Made by a program: the position numbers and the translations under genes. The notes under the pieces are model-generated. The model was given only the letters and a program-made list of their open reading frames with translations, did not search any database and had not been told where the DNA came from. Positions 5,969 through 50,857 of a DNA stretch of 53,162 nt are shown here, in pieces. The first letter of the stretch is position 1, and every line of letters begins with the position of its first letter. The stretch is from Actinomycetota bacterium (GTDB lineage Bacteria; Actinomycetota; CADDZG01; WHSQ01), in the NCBI GenBank assembly GCA_009379915.1, contig WHSV01000014.1, positions 1 to 53,162 on the forward strand, read 5' to 3'.

Positions 5969-7221
5969 GGGACGTTCTCGTCATGGGAATGGGTACGTCG
6001 GGTCTGGTGGCGGCCCTTCGTTGCCAGGAGGCGGGGCTCAAAGTGACGCTGCTGGCAAAGGGCGTCGGTTCCACTCACCTGGCCCCCGGCACCATCGACG
6101 TCCTCGGATACGACCCAGAGTTGGTCGAGAACCCGTCTGAGGCGTTGCCCCGCTTCGCCGACCGGAATCCGGAGCATCCCTACGCGCGCATCGGGGCCGA
6201 TGTCGTGGCTCGTTCACTCGAGTGGTTTTCCGAGCGCTTCGACGGATACCGCTATACCGGGTCGGTGGACGAGAACTTCCTGCTGCCCACGGCGATCGGC
6301 TCTATCAAACCCAGCACTCTCGTGCCAGAGACGCTGGCTGCGGGAGACCTTCGTAAGGGCGGGCGGTTGCTGTTCGTGGGCTTGCGACAGCTCAAAGACT
6401 TCTATCCTGCGCTCACCGCCCAGAACGTCGCGAACGCAAAAACGCCATCGGGGGCGGACATCTCGGCACGCGCCGTGCAGATCGAGCCCCCGATCAGTGG
6501 CGAGGCCGACGTGACCGGCCTTGCCTTGGCAAGGAAGTTCGACGATCCAGGGTTTCTCGACGCGGTTGCGACGCAGATATCTGCACTCGTAGACGGCGAC
6601 GAAGCCGTTGGTCTTCCGGCAGTCCTCGGATTGCGACGACCGCGCGAGGTTTGGGAGGGGCTCCAGGAAGCGCTCGGCCGCCCGGTCTTCGAGATCCCCG
6701 GTCTTCCCCCGTCGGTGCCCGGCGTTCGTCTCCATGAGATCCTGGTCGCGCAGTTCGAGTCGGCCGGTGGGAGGGTCGTCGTGGGAGCGGAGGCGGTCGG
6801 TGCCGACACCGAAGGCGATCGCGTCACCGCCGTCCGGGTGGCGGCGGCCGCGCGCATCAAGCCCTTTGTCGCCCGCCACTTCGTCCTCGCAACCGGAGGT
6901 TTCGGATCGGGGGCAATCGAGATGACGTCGAGCTGGAAGGTGCGCGAGAACGTATTCGATCTGCCGGTGATGGGGGTTCCTGCCGACGGACAGCGCTTCA
7001 GTCCCCGGTATTTCGACAGGCAACCCATGGGCCGAGCGGGGATCCGTATCGACGACTCGCTGCATCCGCTCGACGGGTCCGGCCGCAGGTTGTACGCCAA
7101 CCTGACCGTGGTGGGGGCGTGCATCGCCGGTTCCGAGGCGTGGCGGGAGAAGTCGGGTGAGGGAATCAGCTTGTCGAGTGGCTACAAGGCCGCGACGACT
7201 GTGATCGAGGAGGCCATGTGA
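5965..7221 (+). CDS. glpB: Anaerobic glycerol-3-phosphate dehydrogenase subunit B
   Basis: 418 residues with an N-terminal Rossmann FAD/NAD motif (GMGTSGLVAALRCQEAG) near residue 8, the expected size and fold of GlpB. The ATG at 5965 lies in an ATGA overlap with the glpA stop; a longer in-frame extension over glpA is rejected. GlpB links GlpA to the membrane-attached GlpC. The glpC start overlaps its stop by 4 nt (GTGA). Confidence 0.9.
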   Translation: MRDVLVMGMGTSGLVAALRCQEAGLKVTLLAKGVGSTHLAPGTIDVLGYDPELVENPSEALPRFADRNPEHPYARIGADVVARSLEWFSERFDGYRYTGSVDENFLLPTAIGSIKPSTLVPETLAAGDLRKGGRLLFVGLRQLKDFYPALTAQNVANAKTPSGADISARAVQIEPPISGEADVTGLALARKFDDPGFLDAVATQISALVDGDEAVGLPAVLGLRRPREVWEGLQEALGRPVFEIPGLPPSVPGVRLHEILVAQFESAGGRVVVGAEAVGADTEGDRVTAVRVAAAARIKPFVARHFVLATGGFGSGAIEMTSSWKVRENVFDLPVMGVPADGQRFSPRYFDRQPMGRAGIRIDDSLHPLDGSGRRLYANLTVVGACIAGSEAWREKSGEGISLSSGYKAATTVIEEAM

Positions 7222-8426
7222 TCGAAGACCTGATCCGCGGCTCACTCGATCACTGTGTCAAGTGCACGATCTGCGAGACGCATTGCCCGGTCTCACGCGC
7301 TACACCGCTGTTCCCCGGTCCGAAGTACGTGGGTCCGCAGGCGGAGCGGTTTCGCTCCGGGGATGTCTCGCCCGACGATTCGCTCGACTACTGCTCCGGG
7401 TGCGGAATCTGCACGCAAGTGTGCCCTCAGGGCGTCAAAGTCGCCGAGATCAACAGCCGAGCTCGCCGTACTCTGAAGGAGAGCCGAGGCATACCGCTTA
7501 GGGACAAGATCATCTCGAGGCCCACCCTGAGCGCCAGGCTCGCGACACCGGTCGCGCCTGTCGCCAACTGGAGCCTTCGCAACAAGCTGATTCGCGCAGC
7601 GGTCGAGAAGACCATTGGCGTTCATCGCCGGGCTCCTATGCCGAAGTTTGCGGGCCGGACCTTTCAGAGCTGGGCGCGCAAACACGATGCACCGAGGCTC
7701 GACCGCTCGGTCGTCTACTTCCATGGCTGTAGCACCAACTTCTTCGAGCCGGACCTGGGCGCCAAGACGGTGGCGGTGCTCGAGCACAACGGATTCAACG
7801 TCATCGCCCCGAGGGGTCAGGGCTGTTGTGGCCTCCCTCTGCAGTCGAACGGGCTGTTCGACGACGCCACGGGGTACGTGGAGCGGCTGGTGGCCAAGCT
7901 GGCGCCCTACGCCCGTGAGGGATACGACATCGTCGCGACATCGACCAGTTGCGGGTTGATGCTCAAGCGCGAGGCATACGAGATTCTCGGGATGGAGAGC
8001 GACGACCTGAGGGTCGTGTCCGAGCGGATGTACGACATCTGCGAGTTCCTCCTCGACCTCCAGGAACGGGGCGAACTCGAGACCGATTTATCGCCCGTGC
8101 CCATGAAGGTCCCGTACCACGTTCCCTGTCAGCAGCGAGGTCATGAGATGGGCAAGCCGGCCGTCGATCTCTTCCGTCTGATCCCCGAGTTGCAAGTGGT
8201 CGACACACAGCGCGCGTGTTGTGGAATCGCCGGAACCTATGGGCTGAAGAAAGAGAAGTACGACATCGCCATGGAGGTCGGCCGGCATCTGTTCGAGGAC
8301 GTCACACGCATGGAGCCGGAGGTATCGGTGTGTGACAGCGAGACCTGCCGCTGGCAGATCGAACACGGCACGCGGATTCGGTCGGTGCATCCCATCGAGT
8401 TGCTGCACCGCTCTTACGAACTCTAG
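7218..8426 (+). CDS. glpC: Anaerobic glycerol-3-phosphate dehydrogenase subunit C (iron-sulfur, CCG domains)
   Basis: 402 residues. Two ferredoxin-type 4Fe-4S motifs are seen near residues 13 (CVKCTICETHCP) and 59 (CSGCGICTQVCP). They are followed by two cysteine-rich CCG repeats (CCGLPLQSNG and CCGIAGTYG), as in GlpC and heterodisulfide-reductase-like proteins. It anchors GlpAB and passes electrons to menaquinone. The GTG start overlaps glpB. Its stop codon TAG lies within CTCTAG, the left boundary of a repeated element that separates glpC from dhaM. Confidence 0.92.
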   Translation: MIEDLIRGSLDHCVKCTICETHCPVSRATPLFPGPKYVGPQAERFRSGDVSPDDSLDYCSGCGICTQVCPQGVKVAEINSRARRTLKESRGIPLRDKIISRPTLSARLATPVAPVANWSLRNKLIRAAVEKTIGVHRRAPMPKFAGRTFQSWARKHDAPRLDRSVVYFHGCSTNFFEPDLGAKTVAVLEHNGFNVIAPRGQGCCGLPLQSNGLFDDATGYVERLVAKLAPYAREGYDIVATSTSCGLMLKREAYEILGMESDDLRVVSERMYDICEFLLDLQERGELETDLSPVPMKVPYHVPCQQRGHEMGKPAVDLFRLIPELQVVDTQRACCGIAGTYGLKKEKYDIAMEVGRHLFEDVTRMEPEVSVCDSETCRWQIEHGTRIRSVHPIELLHRSYEL

Positions 8427-8502
8427 GCTTCGGCGGAGCTTCGCTGCGCCTCGCCGAGCGAGAGGCTCGGAACCCCGCCCTCCGGGCGGGCAAAGTCTCT
8501 AG
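8421..8502. repeat. Repeat A, copy 1 (76-bp period, hairpin-rich)
   Basis: The sequence between two CTCTAG boxes (8421-8426 and 8497-8502) is nearly identical to 45914-45994, with a few substitutions and one extra C here. It holds two hairpins: GCTTC-GGC-GGAGC and CCCGCCC-TCC-GGGCGGG. Collapsing the flanking CTCTAG copies would leave glpC ending only 21 nt before the dhaM start, so the element looks like an insertion between two formerly adjacent genes. It could act as an mRNA structure or attenuator in the glpABC-dhaM transcript. Confidence 0.85.
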
Positions 8503-13150: not shown

Positions 13151-13170
13151 GACCTGCTGTTGTTCTTGGC

Positions 13171-13190
13171 GCGATCGTCGAGACGATCGC
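13171..13190. terminator. Palindromic hairpin between convergent genes
   Basis: GCGATCGTC-GA-GACGATCGC is a perfect 9-bp stem with a 2-nt centre, 20 nt after the PfpI-like stop and touching the stop codon of the minus-strand small gene. There is no strong T tract on either side. A bidirectional terminator is the most natural reading. Confidence 0.6.
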
Positions 13191-13417
13191 TACTCGTCGT
13201 CCTGACCGCGCGCGTAGTCGGGCCGTACAGCTTCGCGCTCGGGGTCCTCTTCGTCTTCGCCGCGAGCGAAGTCGGAGCGCACCTTCTCGCGCGCCGCGTC
13301 GTGCGTCTCCTGGCCGCTCCCGAAGTCGCCCTCGTGCTCTTTCTCGTGGTCGTCGGGAACCTTCTCCTGGCCCTTCGCGAAACCATGGCCCGAGTGGTCG
13401 TCCTTGTGATGATCCAT
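13190..13417 (-). CDS. Small acidic, His/Asp/Glu-rich hydrophilic protein
   Basis: 75 residues starting MDHHKDDHSGHGFAKGQ. The ATG at 13417 is chosen because a perfect AGGAGG lies 5 nt upstream. The protein has no hydrophobic segment and no cysteine. It carries four loose repeats around an aromatic-A/G-(K/R/S)-G-(Q/E) core (GFAKGQ, FGSGQ, DFARGE, DYARGQ) separated by charged stretches, and is probably disordered. I do not recognise the family; a stress or hydration-type protein is a guess. It is transcribed alone, towards the PfpI gene. Confidence 0.7.
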   Translation of the reverse strand: MDHHKDDHSGHGFAKGQEKVPDDHEKEHEGDFGSGQETHDAAREKVRSDFARGEDEEDPEREAVRPDYARGQDDE

Positions 13418-45647: not shown

Positions 45648-45881
45648 GTGGAAATCGCACTAATCGTCATTCACGTCATCGTGTCTCTGACGCTGATCCT
45701 TCTCGTCCTCCTCCACGCCGGTCGTGGCGGGGGCGTCTCTGAGATGTTCGGAGGCGGCATGCAGAGCACGGCGATGGGATCCACGGTCATGGAGAAGAAC
45801 CTGGACCGAATCACGGTCGTCACGGCCGTGATCTTCACGGGCACGACGATCCTGCTCGCATCCAGGCTTTCTGGTTCGTAA
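45648..45881 (+). CDS. secG: Preprotein translocase subunit SecG
   Basis: 77 residues: two transmembrane helices flanking the GRGGGVSEMFGGG loop diagnostic of SecG. GTG start. The tpiA-secG synteny is conserved in actinobacteria, so the BlaI/M56 pair is an insertion in this order. Confidence 0.95.
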   Translation: MEIALIVIHVIVSLTLILLVLLHAGRGGGVSEMFGGGMQSTAMGSTVMEKNLDRITVVTAVIFTGTTILLASRLSGS

Positions 45882-45908: not shown

Positions 45909-47645
45909 ATGTCCTCTAGGCTTCGGCGAAGCTTCGCTGCGCCTCGCCGAGCGAGAGGCTCGGAACCCGCCCTACGGGCGGACAAGTCCTCTAGCAGCGC
46001 GGCGCTGCGCGCCGCTGTACTGAGCGTCTGCCTGCTGATACCGGCGGCATGTACCGGAGACGACGAGCCCGGAGAAGGCCCCGATGCTCTGGCTACGGCG
46101 GCTTCGGACGAGGCGCCGGAGCCTCTGGAGACCGCGGCACCCGACGCGTCCGTGGCCTCGTTCGAGGACGAATCAAACGTCTTGAACGTCGCGATCAGCG
46201 AGCCCAACTCGCTTGACCCCATGCGCGTGCAGGATCCCGCCTCGGTACTGATCGCACGCCAGCTCTATGAGGGCCTCACGCGTTGGGATGCCGCCGGCGA
46301 GCGGGTTGAGCCCGCGGTGGCGGAGGAGATCGAGGTTTCGGACGACGCCAAGACGTTCACGTTCACGCTGAGAGACGATGCGACCTTCCACAACGGCGAT
46401 CCGGTCACGGCTCAGGACTTCGCGTTCGCCTTCAATCGGATCGCGCTCAAGCGCAGCGGAGCCGACATCTCCTACCTCCTCGAGCTCGTCAGAGGCTTCG
46501 ATGACGTCAATTCCTTCGGAGATGCAAAGTCGCTCAGCGGAATCAAGACTCCCGACGACAAGACCCTCGTGATCGAGCTGTCCGAGCCCTATGCCAACTT
46601 CCCATCCGCCTTGACCAATCCAAGCCTCGTTCCTCTACCGGAGGAGGCGTTCGAGGCGTCCGATGACTTCAGCTCGGAGCCGATCGGAAACGGTCCCTTC
46701 GAGATGGCGCAGCCGTTCGAGCTCAGCGCTCCGGTCGTGCTGAAAGCCGTGGAGGGGCATTTCCAGGAGCCGGGCATCGAGGGGATCCGGTTCCTGCCGT
46801 TCCCCGACGCGGCCTCCTCGTGGATCCCCTTCACGAACGACCAGCTGGACGTCACCGAGGTCCCCACGACTCGGATCGAGCAGGCGCGCGAGGAGTACGG
46901 GAAGGATGGATTCGTACCGCTTCTGGTTGGGTCGTACTACGGGTTCAATCTCGAGTCGGACGAGCTCGGGGACACTCGAAAGCGCCGGGCCATCAACCTC
47001 GCGATCGATAGAGAGACCCTGGCCGAGGACATCTTCGCCGGAACGATGCAGCCCCCACGGGGCATCGTTCCGCTCGGCATGCCGGGTTTCTCCGATGACG
47101 TCTGTGGCGAGCTCTGCGAGTTCGACGCCCCAGCCGCGAGGCAGCTCGTGCGCAAGCTTCCCGAGGACCAACGTGAAGTTACGCTCGAGTACACCAGGGA
47201 GCAACCGCAGAAGCAGGTGGCGAGGCGGGTGAGGGGCTACCTTCGGGACGCCGGGCTCGACGTGAAGTTGAGGGGCTATCCCTTCGGCAGGTACCTCGAG
47301 CGCTTGAGCGACGGCGACCAATCCATGTACAGGCTCGGCTGGATCGCCGAGTACGCCGATCCCGACGTGTATCTCTCTGCTCTGTTCGACTCAGACTCGC
47401 CCGACAACCACACGGGCTTCGCCTCCAAGCGGGTCGACTCCCTGTTAGCCGAGGCTCGGAGGGAGAGCGACGAGGCGGCGAGACTCCGGCTCTACCAGCG
47501 CATCGAGGAGATCATCCTCGATCGGGTACCCCTGGTTCCGGTCGGTTCGTTCCGCATGTTCTGGGCTGCGGCGACGCGCGTCCAGGGAGTCGAGTTCGAC
47601 GCTCTCGGAGGGTTCGACGCGGCCCCCATCTCTCTCGAAGGCTAG
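45909..47645 (+). CDS. ABC-type peptide/oligopeptide-binding lipoprotein (family 5) with inserted N-terminus
   Basis: 578 residues. The body (from about residue 75) is a family-5 solute-binding protein of the OppA/DppA type: ISEPNSLDPMRVQDPAS, TFTLRDDATFHNGDPVTAQD, and a C-terminal LGWIAEYADPDVYLS. The lipobox is IPAAC with Cys48. Residues 4-28 are encoded by Repeat A copy 2; no other start codon is available downstream before the signal helix. Removing the 75-bp period leaves a normal 23-residue lipoprotein signal. No permease or ATPase genes are adjacent. Confidence 0.88.
   Translation: MSSRLRRSFAAPRRARGSEPALRADKSSSSAALRAAVLSVCLLIPAACTGDDEPGEGPDALATAASDEAPEPLETAAPDASVASFEDESNVLNVAISEPNSLDPMRVQDPASVLIARQLYEGLTRWDAAGERVEPAVAEEIEVSDDAKTFTFTLRDDATFHNGDPVTAQDFAFAFNRIALKRSGADISYLLELVRGFDDVNSFGDAKSLSGIKTPDDKTLVIELSEPYANFPSALTNPSLVPLPEEAFEASDDFSSEPIGNGPFEMAQPFELSAPVVLKAVEGHFQEPGIEGIRFLPFPDAASSWIPFTNDQLDVTEVPTTRIEQAREEYGKDGFVPLLVGSYYGFNLESDELGDTRKRRAINLAIDRETLAEDIFAGTMQPPRGIVPLGMPGFSDDVCGELCEFDAPAARQLVRKLPEDQREVTLEYTREQPQKQVARRVRGYLRDAGLDVKLRGYPFGRYLERLSDGDQSMYRLGWIAEYADPDVYLSALFDSDSPDNHTGFASKRVDSLLAEARRESDEAARLRLYQRIEEIILDRVPLVPVGSFRMFWAAATRVQGVEFDALGGFDAAPISLEG
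45911..45994. repeat. Repeat A, copy 2, flanked by 9-bp direct repeats
   Basis: GTCCTCTAG occurs at 45911-45919 and 45986-45994, a 75-bp period, enclosing a sequence nearly identical to 8427-8496. Hairpins: GCTTC-GGC-GAAGC (perfect here) and CCGCCC-TAC-GGGCGG. It lies entirely inside the start of the lipoprotein gene and keeps its frame (25 codons). Candidate non-autonomous mobile element (MITE/REP-like). Confidence 0.85.
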
Positions 47646-47989: not shown

Positions 47990-50857
47990 GTGACCGACCT
48001 CCACGGTCGCGGAGGCGACGTCGGTCTCGAAGTGGACGGCGCCGGCTCCCAGAGCGCAACTCGACGTAACGGTGCGAAGGACCTGCCAACCGGCACCGTT
48101 ACCTTGTTGTTGACCGACATCGAGGGTTCGACCAAGCTCTGGACCGAGCGCCCCCGGGCGATGTTCCAGGCCGTCTCGCGTCATCACACGATCATCGGGA
48201 ACGCAATCGAGCGGCGCGGCGGCGTGATGCCCCGCGATCAGGGCGAGGGGGACAGTATCTTCGCCGCGTTCCCGCGCGCCAGTGACGCGGTTTCGGCGGC
48301 GCTGGACATCCAGCTGGCGCTACACGGCGAGCCGTGGCCGGAGGGCGTTGCCCTGCGTGTGCGTCTCGCTCTACATACGGGAGAGCCCCGGCTGGCGGAG
48401 GGAAACTACTTCGGGCAGACGGTGAGCCGCTGCGCCCGGCTTCGGGGCCTCGCAAACGGCGGGCAGACCCTTCTCTCCTCCACGACCATGGAGCTCGTAC
48501 GCGACGAATTTCCACCCGGAGCGTCGGGGGTGGATCTGGGCACTCACCGGCTGAAGGACTTCGCCCGGCCCGAGGCCGTCTTTCAGCTCACTCATCCCGA
48601 TCTGCCAGACAACTTCCCACCACTCCATTCCGACGAAGCGAGAGCCGACAATCTGCCACTGCAGCTCACGACTTTCGTGGGCCGCGAGCAGGAGATCACG
48701 GAGATCAAGGACCTTCTGGCGGACCTCCGCCTCGTCACGCTCGTCGGCCCCGGCGGCTGCGGCAAGTCACGGCTCGCCATCGAGGTCGGGCGGCAACTGC
48801 TCGCCGAGTTCGAGGACGGCGTTCATCTCGTTGCCCTTGCATCACTAAGCGATTCGTCACTGGTCGTGTCGCGCATCGCGCAGAGCGTCGGTCTGCAAGA
48901 GAGCGCCGGCGAGGCACCGTTCGACGGGCTCGCGAACTTCCTTCGAGACAAGCACATGCTGTTGATGCTCGACAACTTCGAGGGCGTCATCGGAGCGGCT
49001 GCGATGGTTTCCGAGGTTCTGGCCGAGTGTCCCGATATCAAGGTCCTCGTGACAACGCGGGCCTCGTTACGAGTCTCCAGCGAGCACCAGTTTCAAGTGC
49101 CCCCCCTGGATTTGCCGGAGCTGGACTACCTTCCCGACTTAGAGGAGCTGTCCCGCCATTCGGCCGTCAAGCTCTTCGTCGAACGTGCGCAGGCGATCAA
49201 GGCCGACTTCGCCCTGACGAACGCGAACGCCCGCATCATCGCAGAGATCTGTCACCGGCTCGACGGGCTGCCTCTTGCAATCGAACTGGCCGCCGTACGC
49301 GTCAAGCTGTTGCCGCCGGCCGTTCTGCTCGACAGGCTGAGTAGCCGGCTGGATCTATTGATCGGTGGCCCGCGCGATCTTCCCGCGCGCCAGCAAACCC
49401 TGCGAAATGCTATCGACTGGGACTACACGCTGCTCGAACCAGAGGAACAGAAACTCTTCCGGCGCCTCGCCGTGTGCCGGGGAGGCCTGAGCCTCGAGGC
49501 GGCCTCCGCGGTCGCGACCGCAGCCGGGGAGGTCGGTCTCGACCTATTCGACGGACTCGACTCCCTCGTGGGAAAGAGCCTGTTACGGCAGGTGCCGTCG
49601 CTCCAGGATGACCCGCGCTTCGGAATGCTCCAGACCATCCGCGAGTACGCGCTCGACGTGCTCGATGCGTCCGAGGAGGCGGACGCCACGCGCCAGGCTC
49701 ATGCGAACTTTTATCTCGATCTGGCAGAACAGGCGGCGGAGAAGCTCAGGGGGGCCGATCAGGTGCGCTGGCTCGAGGCCCTCGAGTTCGATCACGACAA
49801 CCTGCAGGACGCCCTCCAGTGGGCGAAGCGCAACGACGATTGGGCAGTGCTCCTGCGATTGACGGCCGGCATGTCCTACTTCTGGTCCATTCGCGGCTAC
49901 GTGACCGAGGGCCGGCTGTGGACCAAGCTCGCTCTCGAACGCACCGAAGGGATCAACAGCCTTCACCGTGCGCGCGTTCTCGCCGGTGGAGCGATGCTGG
50001 CGCGGGCCCGCGTGGACTACGACGAGGCGCGACGTCTCCTCGAGGAATGCATCGAGGCCCAACGGTTGTTGGGCGACGACGGGGGCGTGGCTTTCTCGAT
50101 CAAGGACCTCGGCAACCTCGAGGTCGATCAGGGCAATATCGAGGGGGCCGAGAAGCTCTACAACGAAAGCCTCGCCGAGTGGCGCAGGCTCGGGGACCAG
50201 GAGGGGATCGCGCAGACGCTCAACAATCTCGGCTTCATCGCTCAGATCAAAGGCGACCAGACCGAGGCCATGAAACTGCTCAACGAAAGTCTCGTTATCT
50301 TTCGCCAGGTGCGCGACAAGCAGGGGATCGCTCGAGCTCTCATGAACATCGCCGTCAGCACGCGCGAGCTCGGCGACTACGATCGGGCCGTCAAGCTCTC
50401 GCGCGAAAGCCTCGTGTTATGGAGGCAGCTCGGAGACAAGTGGGACGTGGCGGACTGTCTCGAGGACCTGGCCGGCGAGCTTCACGAGCTCGGCCTTCAC
50501 TACCAGGCGGCCGTCCTTTACGGTGGTGCAGAGGCACTCCGCTGGGCGATCGGTGCACCGAGGCCACCCGTCGAGCAAGAGACCTACCAGCGACGCGTGG
50601 ATGCGGTCCACAATGCGCTGGGGGACGCCGGATTCAGTGAGTGTTGGGCGCGGGGGAGCGGGATGCGAATGGAGGAAGTCATCGACTACGCGCTGCACGA
50701 CGACACCCGAAGTCGCGGGGCGGGCTCGGCCGGACCGCAAAATGGACGCGGGGCGGGCTCGGCCGGACCGCAAAATGGACGCGGGGCGGGCTCGGCCGGA
50801 CCGCAAAATGGACGCGGGGCGGGCTCGGCCGGACCGCCGGATGGGGTGGGCAAATGA
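47990..50857 (+). CDS. Class III nucleotide cyclase fused to NB-ARC-type ATPase and TPR repeats
   Basis: 955 residues. Residues 35-205 form a class III cyclase homology domain with metal Asp43 (LLTDIEGSTKLW) and Asp88 (QGEGDSIFAAF). The usual transition-state Asn is Ser146 while Arg150 is kept (TVSRCARL). Residues 225-520 are an AfsR/NB-ARC-like STAND ATPase, Walker A GPGGCGKS at 253-260. Residues about 600-890 are TPR helices (ARVDYDEARRLLEE, repeated NESL units). Residues about 907-950 are RGAGSAGPQNG tandem repeats. There is no LuxR helix-turn-helix as in related mycobacterial proteins. The TGA overlaps the next ATG by 4 nt. Confidence 0.88.
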   Translation: MTDLHGRGGDVGLEVDGAGSQSATRRNGAKDLPTGTVTLLLTDIEGSTKLWTERPRAMFQAVSRHHTIIGNAIERRGGVMPRDQGEGDSIFAAFPRASDAVSAALDIQLALHGEPWPEGVALRVRLALHTGEPRLAEGNYFGQTVSRCARLRGLANGGQTLLSSTTMELVRDEFPPGASGVDLGTHRLKDFARPEAVFQLTHPDLPDNFPPLHSDEARADNLPLQLTTFVGREQEITEIKDLLADLRLVTLVGPGGCGKSRLAIEVGRQLLAEFEDGVHLVALASLSDSSLVVSRIAQSVGLQESAGEAPFDGLANFLRDKHMLLMLDNFEGVIGAAAMVSEVLAECPDIKVLVTTRASLRVSSEHQFQVPPLDLPELDYLPDLEELSRHSAVKLFVERAQAIKADFALTNANARIIAEICHRLDGLPLAIELAAVRVKLLPPAVLLDRLSSRLDLLIGGPRDLPARQQTLRNAIDWDYTLLEPEEQKLFRRLAVCRGGLSLEAASAVATAAGEVGLDLFDGLDSLVGKSLLRQVPSLQDDPRFGMLQTIREYALDVLDASEEADATRQAHANFYLDLAEQAAEKLRGADQVRWLEALEFDHDNLQDALQWAKRNDDWAVLLRLTAGMSYFWSIRGYVTEGRLWTKLALERTEGINSLHRARVLAGGAMLARARVDYDEARRLLEECIEAQRLLGDDGGVAFSIKDLGNLEVDQGNIEGAEKLYNESLAEWRRLGDQEGIAQTLNNLGFIAQIKGDQTEAMKLLNESLVIFRQVRDKQGIARALMNIAVSTRELGDYDRAVKLSRESLVLWRQLGDKWDVADCLEDLAGELHELGLHYQAAVLYGGAEALRWAIGAPRPPVEQETYQRRVDAVHNALGDAGFSECWARGSGMRMEEVIDYALHDDTRSRGAGSAGPQNGRGAGSAGPQNGRGAGSAGPQNGRGAGSAGPPDGVGK
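50714..50837 (+). repeat. 33-bp tandem repeat (about 3.75 copies)
   Basis: The unit starts CGCGGGGCGGGCTCGG and encodes RGAGSAGPQNG. Three copies are identical and the fourth is cut after 25 bp. It forms the C-terminus of the cyclase protein and ends 16 bp before the start of the next gene. Perfect identity implies recent expansion. Confidence 0.95.

Follow-up and report, generated by a model that had tools for sequence, protein, structure and literature searches.

Most known cases of selfish repeats embedded in proteins come, to our knowledge, from Rickettsia and a few other proteobacteria. The Rickettsia palindromic elements (RPE) are about 150 bp long and are inserted in frame in many genes, and most of the copies described in the review drawn on here lie within open reading frames (Ogata et al. 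2000, as reviewed in PMC10969869). The enterobacterial repeats RU-1 and RU-2 are MITE-like, with units of 103–168 bp, and in YPO1552 an RU repeat makes the predicted signal (PMC2759123). REP elements, tagged GTAG or CGTC, measure 20–40 bp; many are accompanied by RAYT tyrosine transposases, and in some genomes they are intragenic (PMC3733652).

The window analysed here, 53,162 nucleotides of DNA from an uncultured actinobacterial lineage, holds a 75-bp stretch in the signal peptide of a lipoprotein gene. This stretch is probably a copy of a small non-autonomous mobile repeat, E1, which inserts at (C)CTCTA(G)-like sites and duplicates about 5–7 bp. As a family E1 is new, though of a known kind: it works like RPE, RU and REP elements and fits none of their definitions in full. 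As judged from the reading frames, which appear unbroken, it lies in frame in the lipoprotein and in at least two other proteins, a TetR regulator and a ceramidase-like protein. In this it is like RPE, small hairpin-forming families with no transposase of their own that sit in frame in unrelated protein genes left open. It differs from RPE, as compared by description and not by sequence, in its unit of 75 bp, its mostly intergenic or stop-codon positions, its tandem arrays and its actinobacterial host. As with RU there are intragenic copies, and E1 too would be translated in host proteins, including a signal peptide and a C-terminal end, which is a likeness in effect; E1, however, merely lengthens the n-region of a pre-existing signal, whereas the signal of YPO1552 is made by RU. 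REP elements are likewise short palindromic repeats, often in dimers or groups (PMC3733652), but E1 has a core of 68–69 bp and edges reading CTCTA or CTCTG, and the Y1 (RAYT) family (PF01797) is absent from the 95%-complete assembly. E1 resembles MITEs (PMC10969869) in being small, multicopy, non-autonomous and apparently target-duplicating, but it has no terminal inverted repeats, and no autonomous partner or parent insertion sequence was seen. It is an independent case in its lineage, with an empty site at the DNA level, and the lipoprotein copy is a natural experiment on the extra length that an export signal will tolerate in its n-region.

The lipoprotein gene and its insert

The gene lies directly behind secG (Table 1), and its ATG opens an ORF of 578 aa whose product is a family-5 solute-binding lipoprotein. 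GTCCTCTAG occurs at 45911–45919 and again at 45986–45994, a spacing of exactly 75 bp or 25 codons, at the very positions given in the first-pass annotation. Removal of one 75-bp period in silico yields MSSSSAALRAAVLSVCLLIPAAC, with 23 residues to the Cys, which is the lipoprotein signal that had been foreseen. The same annotation had held that there is no alternative start downstream, and a start-codon scan indeed found no other ATG, GTG or TTG after 45909 through the lipobox Cys; if a standard start codon is used, the insert must therefore be translated.

Table 1. Features of the window discussed in the text
Feature	Position	Strand	Basis or remark
Second E1 copy in the window	8421..8502	+	CTCTAG on both sides; empty site in orthologue L250
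secG, kept upstream neighbour and synteny marker	45648..45881	+	PF03840, E=6.2e-19; gene order the same in orthologue loci
SBP_bac_5 lipoprotein ORF with insert in signal peptide	45909..47645	+	PF00496, E=1.5e-70; sole start codon ATG 45909
Probable duplicated target TCCTCTA, left copy	45912..45918	+	Sequence reading, flank statistics
E1 core, 68 bp, GGCTTCGG...GACAAG, hairpin-rich	45919..45986	+	Alignment, consensus fold, covariance-model match
Probable duplicated target TCCTCTA, right copy	45987..45993	+	Sequence reading, flank statistics

The 25 inserted codons make the n-region longer by mostly polar and Arg-rich residues; neither the hydrophobic stretch nor the lipobox is affected. The gene holds a single E1 core, matched by the covariance model at 45915–45986 with 100.8 bits. 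All 10 syntenic orthologues, which belong to other genera and are likewise preceded by secG, lack the 25 codons and have signal peptides of ordinary length; the insertion is read here from these orthologue proteins, and the DNA-level empty site described below belongs to a sister copy. The intact reading frame suggests that the gene is unbroken, and the longer signal may still export its protein. The RRSFA in the insert was considered as a Tat motif and ruled out, the hydrophobic stretch beginning about 25 residues later. A search of viral contigs with the lipoprotein profile gave no match. Farther downstream, a 955-aa ORF (47990–50857) has a C-terminus (50720–50857) composed of tandem RGAGSAGPQNG-type repeats, which are unrelated to E1.

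Copies, edges and target sites

E1 is abundant in its own genome of 3.39 Mb. BLAST with a 144-bp query gave 42 matches, many of them 85–98% identical, and a covariance model built from 27 units gave 41; some 40 matches place the repeat far beyond chance. Seven contigs of this genome (C4, C13, C53, C68, C82, C101 and C107) terminate within or beside an E1 unit: the repeat breaks the assembly, the copies are undercounted, and the true number is probably higher. Elsewhere E1 was absent: there was no match to the covariance model in 60 relatives, by BLAST in 40 relatives, to an exact degenerate pattern in the GTDB genome collection minus the own genome, or in Rfam. The named records nearest to the assembly are uncultured Actinomycetota bins, at about 48–56% protein identity. 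The idea that a tiny repeat had come to lie in frame in an export signal is thus supported by the dispersed copies together with the insert-free orthologues.

When the units are aligned with their flanks, the consensus reads TCTRGGCTTCGGCGRAGCTYCGCTGCGCCTCGCCGAGCGAAAGGCTCGGAAYCC(C)GCCCTCCGGGCGGGCAAG, and the edge beyond it is TCTCTAG-like but more variable. E1 consists of a hairpin-rich core and a probable duplicated target of 5–7 bp resembling (C)CTCTA(G); the left edge TCTRG is near-invariant. The consensus unit is stop-free in four of the six frames. The copies in proteins are read in three different frames, and on both strands; what spreads is therefore not the encoded peptide. Only about 5 of 33 loci lie inside genes, most of the others being intergenic or at a TAG stop codon.

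In the TetR regulator two units in tandem, together 150 bp or 50 residues and read from the element's other strand, lie between the last two helices. The 50-residue insert is missing from 19 of 19 aligned homologues, and the junction aligns without further gaps. With the insert removed, the score for TetR_C_32 rises from 62.0 to 77.0 bits and the match extends towards the end of the domain; in the structure model residues 182–230 form a low-confidence loop between two helices. For the ceramidase-like membrane protein, the Pfam score climbs past the curated cut-off, from 28.5 bits to 38.8 bits, once the in-frame E1 is taken out. In another membrane protein (L058), two E1 units make up the C-terminal end. 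A further copy stands at the very start of rsmG/gidB (L061:954–1625, minus strand), where it is either an in-frame insertion at the N-terminus or lies just upstream of the GTG start; it was not counted as a firm in-frame insert, since the GTG right behind it fits the orthologue start.

The 9-bp repeat around the lipoprotein copy had been taken for a target-site duplication. A duplication is supported, but 9 bp is too long, the meaningful part being the roughly 7 bp TCCTCTA; in the family it spans about 5–7 bp and reads (C)CTCTA or TCTCTG. L045, a closely related copy, agrees with the lipoprotein copy at the right edge, AAGTCCTCTAG, but has GCTGCTCTAG as its left flank, so that the 9-bp match owes its outer bases to chance or to the element's edge. 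Tabulation of flanks, a check proposed in the first-pass annotation along with the copy count and a search for an empty site, favours duplication across the family: at the 18 loci with both edges readable the flank match was 77, against 68.1 ± 2.7 when right flanks were reassigned (20,000 shuffles, p = 6.5e-4), although subfamilies with their own edge bases could yield part of this correlation. At these loci flanks of the same locus had a mean match of 4.3 of 6, versus 2.6 for random genomic flanks. On the other side, the motif is the preferred target family-wide, and in several copies (L053, L055, L056) a clean duplication is lacking. Since subfamily edges are possible, the case for duplication takes the flank statistics together with the empty site in DNA and the TetR alignment.

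The empty site is that of the second copy in the window. The left CTCTAG of this copy contains the TAG stop (8424–8426) of an Fe-S protein gene (7218–8426). In L250, from another genus and 70% identical, the Fe-S gene ends at the same residue, GGG CTC TAG AGAATT, and is followed by the same downstream gene. The single CTCTAG there, which is the stop codon, fits the state before insertion. An empty site of the kind sought in the first-pass annotation was hence found at the DNA level for the sister copy; at the lipoprotein site itself the insertion is read from orthologue proteins.

Stop codons are a common address of E1. At 11 of 33 loci the TAG stop of a neighbouring gene, as called by codon usage, lies in the edge motif, compared with about one locus or fewer expected by chance on a rough estimate of one stop codon per kb. 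CTAG is rare within high-GC genes and natural where a gene ends in C-TAG. With the target duplication restoring the stop, target choice and selection together can explain the overlap.

Origin and spread of the repeat

Three other explanations of these observations deserve consideration. That the 75-bp period arose from host sequence, through slippage or a local tandem duplication and with no mobile insertion, is scarcely tenable. Slippage on the unit does occur, for E1 forms tandem arrays with a step of about 75 bp (four units in L048, two each in L062 and L058), but the unit recurs at about 40 unrelated places whose flanks differ, the lipoprotein has one core only, and its orthologues carry no similar sequence; a host duplication is already refuted by this dispersal and by the empty site in L250. 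It is very unlikely that E1 is a useful host element, such as a terminator or mRNA stabiliser at gene ends, with the protein copies accidental. The many copies on neighbouring stop codons and the GC-rich hairpins would suit such a role; the consensus fold, however, has a double change at one pair only across the family, the fold of the lipoprotein copy is hardly better than that of shuffled sequence (z = -1.36), no T-run was found after the hairpins, and none of the 60 relatives has E1.

The remaining alternative concerns the edges: the CTCTAG sequences could be part of the element instead of a target duplication, with spread by recombination or template switching. The near-invariant left edge beside a varying right edge lends itself to this reading, as does the failure to find a transposase or inverted repeats, the core ends GGCTTCGG... 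and ...GGGCAAG not being inverted copies of each other in the aligned units. The one CTCTAG that L250 has at its empty site, a gain of exactly 150 bp in TetR and the correlation of flanks within loci speak against it, and we consider it unlikely.

For a mobile, target-duplicating E1, the following course is proposed. The core and one copy of the target would amount to about 75 bp, or 25 codons, and with four of its six frames open, one such unit or several in tandem can be taken up by a reading frame that stays unbroken. In the lipoprotein gene E1 would have landed immediately behind the start codon. A putative transposase presumably moves, or moved, the repeat. Tandem arrays would grow by slippage or unequal exchange between direct repeats, which is likely because each joint in the arrays carries the target motif once. 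The 25-codon step, the open frames on both strands and the stop-restoring target duplication are features that would make insertion harmless. Rather speculatively, a preference for CTCTAG may lead E1 onto TAG stops that its own duplication restores, permitting near-harmless spread in a gene-dense genome, with the 25-codon step and the four open frames allowing entry into proteins, and with a mover that uses neither terminal inverted repeats nor a Y1 transposase.

A second repeat family

Another family, D, of about 100 nt, has 44 model matches in the same genome, about 26 of them full length, and no match in Rfam. Its loci include L076–L094 (for example L077:947–1052, L086:935–1041 and L092:937–1042), and a lone hairpin lies at 13157–13193 of the window. 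Covariation is strong: on each measure, none of 500 shuffles reached it. Most copies precede a start codon by a few to 75 nt and share its orientation, and the genes that follow include ones resembling rplF, rpsQ, miaB and ybaB. Among relatives, weak matches alone were seen, in G008, G009 and G010. D is a candidate cis-regulatory RNA or another hairpin repeat.

The two families meet in compound E1 copies (L052, L066, L070, L071, L074 and L075), in which a whole or shortened D lies between the second and third hairpins, as if one repeat had captured the other. At L081:975–1213, D is tandemly duplicated along with the first codons of the following gene (MKSRYSKWE / MKSRYSKWDN).
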